64,000 nucleotides of DNA from Methanolobus sediminis (lineage in GTDB: Archaea > Halobacteriota > Methanosarcinia > Methanosarcinales > Methanosarcinaceae), in contig NZ_CP133592.1 in NCBI RefSeq assembly GCF_031312595.1, positions 558,001-622,000 of the forward strand. Direction: 5' to 3'. A program made the translations under genes and the position numbers. The stretch's first letter is position 1; the number at the start of each line of letters is the position of its first letter. Under the pieces are notes generated by a model. The model was not told the DNA's origin, ran no database searches, and saw nothing but the letters and a program-made list of their open reading frames with translations. Positions 885 through 19,079 of the stretch are shown here, in pieces.

Positions 885-1898
885 ATGGTCGAAGTAGAAA
901 GGGTACGATATTCCGATACTTCCGAAAGGGAGAAGATACGTGCAATGATCAAAGCACGTAAAGAGAAAGATAAGAGCGCTGAAGTTGAAAAAGCAAAAGT
1001 CCAGTGTCCTGAGTGTGGCAGCCGCAACCTCGTACAGGACTACGAGAGAGCTGAACTCGTATGTTCTGACTGTGGACTTGTTGTTGACGCAGAATTCGTT
1101 GATGAAGGACCAGAATGGCGTGCTTTCGATCATGACCAGAGGATGAAGCGTTCCCGTGTGGGTGCACCAATGACCTACACGATCCACGACAAAGGTCTGT
1201 CCACAATGATCGACTGGAGAAACCGTGACTCATACGGTAAATCCATTTCATCAAAGAACAGGGCACAGCTTTACAGGTTGAGAAAATGGCAGCGTAGGAT
1301 AAGAGTAAGTAACGCTACGGAAAGGAACCTTGCGTTCGCTCTGTCTGAACTTGACCGTATGGCATCAGCTCTTGGTCTGCCAAGAACTGTACGTGAAACC
1401 GCCGCTGTAGTTTACAGGAAGGCAGTTGACAAGAACCTCATCCGTGGAAGGAGTATTGAAGGTGTTGCAGCAGCAGCATTGTATGCAGCATGCCGCCAGT
1501 GCAGTGTTCCAAGAACACTTGACGAGATAGGAGAAGTATCAAGGGTAAGCAGAAAAGAGATTGGAAGGACATACCGCTTCATCTCAAGAGAGCTTTCACT
1601 GAAACTCATGCCAACATCACCAATAGACTACGTACCAAGGTTCTGTTCAGGACTTAACCTTAAAGGTGAAGTACAGTCCAGAGGTGTGGAGATTCTCAGG
1701 CAGGCTTCCGAGAAGGAGCTTACCAGTGGCCGTGGCCCAACCGGTGTAGCAGCAGCTGCAATCTACATTGCATCAATTCTTTGTGGCGAGCGCCGTACAC
1801 AGCGTGAGGTCGCCGATGTTGCAGGTGTAACAGAAGTTACCATCCGTAACAGGTACAAAGAGCTTGCTGAAGAGCTTGACATTGAGATCATTCTCTAA
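885..1898 (+). CDS. tfb: Transcription initiation factor IIB (TFB)
   Basis: A 337-residue TFIIB homologue that bridges TBP-bound promoter DNA and RNA polymerase. The N-terminal zinc ribbon uses CPEC (41-44) and CSDC (60-63), followed by the B-reader segment GPEWRAFD. Two cyclin-like repeats follow; each has the LP.T+ET..VY+KAV or [13 protein letters not shown] type helix, and the second repeat ends in the DNA-binding helices [26 protein letters not shown] precedes the ATG at 885. Length and domain order are standard, and no inactivating change is seen. The roughly 35-residue charged extension ahead of the ribbon is common in methanogen TFBs. Confidence 0.97.
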
Positions 1899-18335: not shown

Positions 18336-18581
18336 TTACGAGAAGAAATATGATTTGATAGTCCACATAACTCCGATAAGTAACATAAGAATTCCAGTTA
18401 GCCCCACATTAAAAAAAATCGAAGGCAACGTATGAGGATTTCCGGTTGGATTACCTGCTGCATCACATGCACTTTCAGTCAGATCGATCCCGGCAATATT
18501 GCATATTGACAACACGCTTGCAACAAGAAAGATAATTACAAGTCCGGCTGCCACCATATACATCGGCGTTTTTAAATTCAT
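18336..18581 (-). CDS. Small two-TM membrane protein
   Basis: An 81-residue protein with two hydrophobic helices (MYMVAAGLVIIFLVASVLSIC and VGLTGILMLLIGVMW) separated by a polar loop with two cysteines. No family recognised. ATG 18581 follows a GGGG stretch by 3 bases; an upstream TTG at 18602 is possible. The structured RNA element at 18697-18815 lies upstream on the same strand, 116 bases from this start, and could be its leader. Confidence 0.5.
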   Translation of the reverse strand: MNLKTPMYMVAAGLVIIFLVASVLSICNIAGIDLTESACDAAGNPTGNPHTLPSIFFNVGLTGILMLLIGVMWTIKSYFFS

Positions 18582-18696
18582 TTGCCCCGTAATGGCATTC
18601 AAATAATATAACTCTTTACAAAAGCACCCATAAGTCGATCGATCTCAGCTAACACATTATTTCCAGATAAAGAAAATGAAGAGAAAAGTATCTTTT

Positions 18697-18815
18697 GTGG
18701 GGGTGTATGTTGTTATGATCCTTATCTAACCTTCCTATTTGTTCAAGCAGGAAGGCAGGCCACCTGTTCAGACTAATGCCTTTTGAGATGGTCTGCCTGG
18801 TGAGACCACCCCCAC
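18697..18815 (-). ncRNA. Compact multi-stem structured RNA
   Basis: A perfect 9-bp closing stem, GTGGGGGTG (18697-18705) with CACCCCCAC (18807-18815), encloses at least two inner hairpins: CCTTCC/GGAAGG (18730-18735 with 18750-18755) and CAGAC/GTCTG (18769-18773 with 18791-18795). An AGGCAG/CTGCCT pairing is also possible. On the minus strand a TATA box (18846-18853) lies about 30 bases before the stem, and T-rich sequence follows it, so I assign the minus strand. It could be a stand-alone small RNA or the 5-prime leader of the membrane protein at 18336-18581. It matches no RNA family I know. Confidence 0.5.
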
Positions 18816-18845
18816 GTCTGATAGAATTATTTCAGTAAACAATGT

Positions 18846-18853
18846 AATATAAA
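18846..18853 (-). promoter_or_regulatory. TATA box of the structured RNA
   Basis: TTTATATT on the minus strand, preceded by A-rich bases, at the right distance (about 25-30 bases) to start transcription just before the closing stem. Confidence 0.45.
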
Positions 18854-18971
18854 GTTTGTGAAATTGACCGGGATAGACAAGGTCTTTAGGAAATTATCCG
18901 GTTAATTGTAGATATTTCATAGCAAATAATCATTATATCCATTAAAAACCTATAATAGTATGGGGTTAATA

Positions 18972-19079
18972 ATGAATAACAACGCAATCATCAGTGCCAG
19001 GAAAGTAGGACTAATGTTCTTCCTTTATACCCTTATGCTGATGGCAATAGTCTTAATAGCAGGACTTGTCAATACCTGA
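18972..19079 (+). CDS. Tiny single-TM membrane protein, 35 aa
   Basis: Encodes 35 residues: a polar head (MNNNAIISARK) and one hydrophobic helix ending LYTLMLMAIVLIAGLVNT. It is a paralogue of the 30-residue protein at 7943-8035, sharing the LY-LM core and the AG--NT end directly before the stop. ATG 18960 is in frame and would add four residues. Function unknown; the size and topology suit a subunit stabiliser or membrane-protein regulator. Confidence 0.5.
   Translation: MNNNAIISARKVGLMFFLYTLMLMAIVLIAGLVNT

Follow-up and report, generated by a model that had tools for sequence, protein, structure and literature searches.

Introduction

The closest described counterparts of the RNA reported here come from the same archaeal family. 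sRNA154 of Methanosarcina mazei is described in a review as acting on mRNAs via two loops (PMC5867862), and for Methanolobus psychrophilus R15 a study gives 195 intergenic small RNAs, together with TATA-box promoters for most primary transcripts (PMC5378194). Here we consider an intergenic stretch of Methanolobus sediminis, lying in a window of 64,000 nucleotides, and conclude that it is very probably an uncatalogued structured small RNA gene with start and stop signals of its own. To our knowledge, archaeal small RNAs with covariation-supported structures are few.

Results

The gene, of about 135 nt, occupies 18688 to 18822 on the minus strand, with its 5′ end near 18822 and its 3′ end near 18688, as delimited by a 13-genome alignment and by a covariance model that matched the window RNA over positions 1-138 (E 1.5e-35); the predicted transcript runs from ATCAGACGTGGGGG to a T-tract. 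Folded against shuffles, the 166-nt interval initially delimited gave -49.2 kcal/mol and a z of -3.6 on the minus strand, with a z of -1.6 on the plus strand. The trimmed RNA at 18688-18822 reached a z of -4.65, a value equalled by 0 shuffles, and all 11 of the 11 homologues folded singly gave the same architecture, with z from -4.0 to -7.6.

That architecture consists of a 9-bp clamp, a second helix and a three-way junction with two hairpins, leaving two CA-rich segments single-stranded. The clamp, P1, pairs GTGGGGGTG (18807-18815; all features of the RNA are on the minus strand) with CACCCCCAC (18697-18705), and encloses 101 nt, in good agreement with the preliminary description of this DNA, in which a 9-bp clamp was drawn around about 100 nt; 97.4% of the cells of this helix are paired, and the 5′ strand does not vary among the 11 rows of the first alignment. 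The same description spoke of a three-stem element, and its two inner hairpins are indeed P2 and P3, but it overlooked the helix P1′, by which the junction is closed, and a short outer pairing of ATC with GAT. P1′ joins TCTCAC (18800-18805) to GTTAGA (18725-18730), with one mismatch in the window genome, where most homologues have GTGAGA. P2, formed by 18786-18797 and 18754-18765, shows two-sided change in 9 of its 12 pairs in the 13-genome alignment, and P3, TCCTG-CTTGAACAAA-TAGGA at 18733-18752, in 2 of its 5. The core of the P3 loop is near-invariant (consensus YTTGAAYAMAT, with CTTGAAC, CTTGAAT, CTCGAAT and ATCGAAT as variants among carriers). Between P1′ and P1 lies a 3′ segment, TAAGGATCATAACAACATA (18706-18724), that is unpaired in the centroid folds of most homologues and has a core, TAACARCAT, conserved in most of them. 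Both open segments, the P3 loop and this 3′ strand, are G-poor and A/C-rich; the clamp is G-rich.

Across the 13 aligned rows, pairing holds in 94.3% of 455 cells, and two-sided compensatory change is seen in 20 of 35 pairs, these being counts from an alignment fitted to the covariance model, a procedure that favours the structure. Two-sided cells numbered 44; the figure for shuffles was 13.1, and 0 of 500 came as high, nor did any of the 500 reach any of five measures. Sliding the structure partner by 1-3 columns lowered pairing to 40-50%. In the homologue from a second genus (G086), P1′ is swapped as a block, from TCTCAC/GTGAGA to ACCGAC/GTCGGT. The preliminary description had staked the element beforehand on conservation of the paired positions in relatives, and that conservation is found. 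The helices behave differently, however: P2 covaries freely, and because it varies in both sequence and length it looks like a strut, whereas P1 is nearly invariant except in the two most diverged copies, so that the case for its pairing comes from few substitutions. In the G014 copy P1 is weakened and partly unpaired. Pair statistics were also searched for a pseudoknot; 43 column pairs passed, 7 of them within the structure, and they formed no coherent additional helix.

Signals for transcription flank the fold on both sides. The TATA box, TTATAT at 18847-18852 (within TTTATATT at 18846-18853), lies about 31 nt upstream, and TTATA or TTTATA starts 25-32 nt upstream in 12 of 13 homologues; the thirteenth has AATATAT by eye, which makes a TATA-like motif in 13 of 13, while a narrower pattern window counted the motif in 11 of 13. 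The RNA is followed by a T-rich tract at 18673-18687, a probable terminator, and a run of four or more Ts within 25 nt downstream recurs in 12 of 13 homologues, against 3.1 expected (P about 2e-7). The TATA box at the right place on the minus strand and the T-rich sequence after the element had both been proposed at the outset, and both hold across the homologues. The absence of a matching RNA family, likewise noted then, was confirmed with Rfam 15: at gathering cut-offs the whole window gave one tRNA and nothing at the RNA, scanning 18600-19000 with relaxed cut-offs yielded four matches at the level of chance, and 11 homologous loci had no match over the RNA. A literature search found no description of it, though published RNA-seq of some species may already contain it.

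Among 60 relatives searched with BLAST, a few Methanolobus genomes matched strongly, and when eleven loci were read on the right strand the same RNA was present in 11 of 11. A first covariance model, built from these eleven, detected among 111 genomes of the family two homologues outside the model, one in a second genus (G086, E 1.5e-14) and one in G014 (E 1.7e-11), and nothing further in 185 genomes of the order. With a second model, built from all thirteen homologues, a single copy was found in each of 12 of 27 Methanolobus genomes (E 3.4e-19 or better) and, for the second genus, in one genome out of 8 (E 3.6e-21). At the level of the class, 13 of 237 genomes carry the RNA and there is no other accepted match, and in a sample of 392 genomes drawn evenly from the phylum the 9 that matched are all known carriers; searches over more than 40 genomes had stricter filters and may miss very diverged relatives. 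Carriers include Methanolobus vulcani PL 12/M, M. bombayensis DSM 7082, M. profundi Mob M and metagenome-assembled genomes. The genome G026, which we take to be M. psychrophilus R15, has no covariance match.

Several lesser matches were set aside. The class match in G068 (E 0.0026) was not counted, being a simple T-flanked hairpin; a weak match in G063 looks coding and was judged chance, as were those inspected in G012, G004, G007 and at a second place in G014, and, from its score alone, that in G089 (E 0.68). Matches on the reverse strand overlap true copies and arise from hairpin symmetry, and weak matches in the syntenic stretches of RNA-lacking genomes were not accepted. As for a viral origin, one pattern was sought in viral contigs, with no match.

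The RNA is 77-84% identical to that of four relatives, the flanks of which are 59-73% identical. Since it is absent from 15 of the 27 Methanolobus genomes, it is dispensable. In the sister genome G022 the site is empty, the roughly 270 nt that hold the RNA being replaced by about 45 nt between flanks 77-89% like those of the window genome (77-87% in one of the comparisons); G004 also lacks the RNA between the usual neighbours, with flanks that align less cleanly. On a rubrerythrin gene tree of 22 genomes RNA presence has to change 6 times, the tree being weakly resolved and not separating loss from gain. The preliminary description had entertained a free small RNA under a promoter of its own, and this is supported by the covariation, the TATA box, the T-tract and the empty site. 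The gene, its fold, its promoter and terminator signals and its independence from the next gene are shown by comparative sequence, and the element is very probably a free-standing structured RNA gene of Methanolobus.

The surroundings of the RNA vary. Upstream there is an AIM24-like or a mechanosensitive-channel gene; downstream, a two-TM protein, a cytochrome-c-like protein, rubrerythrin, or nothing close. The two-TM protein of the window (18336-18581, minus strand) has no Pfam match and is found only in Methanolobus, in 10 of 111 family genomes. In the second genus (L048, 940-1254 and 802-886, minus strand) the neighbours of the RNA gene in divergent orientation are the SRP RNA gene and a tRNA. 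At 18972-19079 on the plus strand of the window is a conserved 35-residue single-TM small ORF, MNNNAIISARKVGLMFFLYTLMLMAIVLIAGLVNT, too short for the list of open reading frames.

A second strongly conserved intergenic stretch was noted upstream of the S15 ribosomal protein gene (L002, about 1420-1600, minus strand; also L125-L128). Besides a TATA box it contains the hairpin TTATCGAAC..GTTCGATAA, and it shares GATAAGGATCA with the small RNA. In some species the GTTCAAG loop of that hairpin is a possible pairing partner of CTTGAAC, the P3 loop; loop variants in other species are not compensated.

Discussion

What such an RNA does can be approached through its neighbours and through its open segments. 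The preliminary description had allowed that the element might be the leader of the two-TM protein, and a cis-acting riboswitch or attenuator would be in keeping with the downstream genes, which often lie on the same strand some 65-190 nt away (among the loci tabulated for open reading frames, the two-TM gene at 5, the cytochrome-c-like gene at 3 and rubrerythrin at 1). The downstream gene family differs between carriers, however, and a conserved regulated gene downstream on the same transcript was sought and not found. The gene that follows at L064 has the opposite orientation, and at L059 there is no convincing coding gene nearby. The two-TM protein is found in 7 of 13 RNA carriers and not in the other 6; in G018 its gene and the RNA are on different contigs, and G013 has a weak match to the protein. 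The two-TM gene is also present without the RNA (G022, G007), and in 7 of the 8 genomes looked at, two RNA-lacking genomes among them, a TATA box of its own (TTATAT) precedes its ATG by 29-31 nt. Moreover, the T-tracts come after the RNA. The leader proposal was therefore abandoned, and a cis-acting role for any downstream gene is improbable. Still less credible is a type I-like pair in which the RNA would be the antitoxin of the 35-residue membrane peptide. Of the 12 genus carriers examined, 9 do have the small hydrophobic ORF divergent from the RNA, about 150-200 nt away, but no consistent duplex between the RNA and the small mRNA was found in any of 9 loci, and the ORF, strongly conserved in sequence, exists also in two genomes that lack the RNA (G022, G008); we have rejected this pairing.

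Two further readings turn on the open segments and the clamp. Our overall best explanation, which we hold to be reasonably probable, is a free-standing RNA gene whose product is a trans-acting regulator working via the two open segments. Transcription would begin at the TATA promoter of the gene and end at the T-tract; the RNA would be closed on itself by P1, continue into P1′ and open into the three-way junction, the arms of which would be the long, variable P2 and the short P3 with its conserved loop. The clamp and P2 would keep the P3 loop and the 3′ strand open, these segments would pair with mRNAs in trans, and a protein would probably hold the conserved clamp and junction. Transcription, action in trans and base pairing are what we infer from the sequence, and regulation of mRNAs by base pairing, taken on its own, is put forward as a tentative proposal. 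When the neighbouring gene starts were examined as mRNA targets, 15 families with 2 segments each, or 30 tests, gave nothing beyond chance (matches starting beyond query residue 12 were dropped before the count); neither of the lowest means, for a cupin (n = 3, z -1.55) and for a second kinase (n = 4, z -1.11), is convincing after that many tests. The complement of the 3′ segment, sought as one 10-base pattern in the window genome, occurs at 24 sites against 27 for the control, which is no enrichment. Because the pairing tests are negative, an mRNA-pairing regulator is only the likeliest of several mechanisms, and a protein-binding RNA follows close behind. In the latter, a possibility to be taken seriously though we would not bet on it, the clamp, junction and open segments would bind protein, as a structural or protein-sequestering RNA, and there would be no pairing with mRNA at all. 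The failure of the local search to find an mRNA target fits such a role, as does the near-invariance of the clamp, where pairing alone would permit change of the kind that P2 displays. Against it, no partner gene travels with the RNA, and constraint at the DNA level or on transcription could also freeze P1. Rather unlikely, in our estimate, is a more ambitious combination: a new archaeal class of clamp-closed three-way-junction RNA in which a protein of its own would hold the invariant clamp and junction, the two making up a ribonucleoprotein regulator at the level of the genus that could be gained or lost as one module.

Fold, promoter and end of the RNA are all defined, it occurs as a single copy in the culturable M. 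vulcani, M. bombayensis and M. profundi, and thanks to these carriers and the sister genome with an empty site, species that have it can be cleanly compared with species that lack it.

Among known RNAs, the Methanolobus RNA resembles SRP RNA, RNase P RNA and the C/D and H/ACA guides of archaea in being a structured archaeal RNA; unlike them, it has no Rfam match and no guide-RNA architecture was seen. Membership of the H/ACA guides calls for a two-sided guide pocket, a K-turn and an ANA box; by eye, the features that bear on it are an ACA after P1, an internal loop that is one-sided and no visible K-turn, and Rfam H/ACA models gave no match at the RNA in the homologous loci. It shares with the small RNAs of M. 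psychrophilus R15 its genus and its being a small RNA. There is also a parallel with the M. mazei small RNAs such as sRNA154, which, going by their description, are likewise free-standing, intergenic and stably folded, have open loops and belong to the same archaeal family. The Methanolobus RNA, for its part, has no accepted covariance match in the remaining genera of the family beyond one genome of one other genus, and it differs from sRNA154, by that description, in being built as a three-way junction that a terminal clamp closes.
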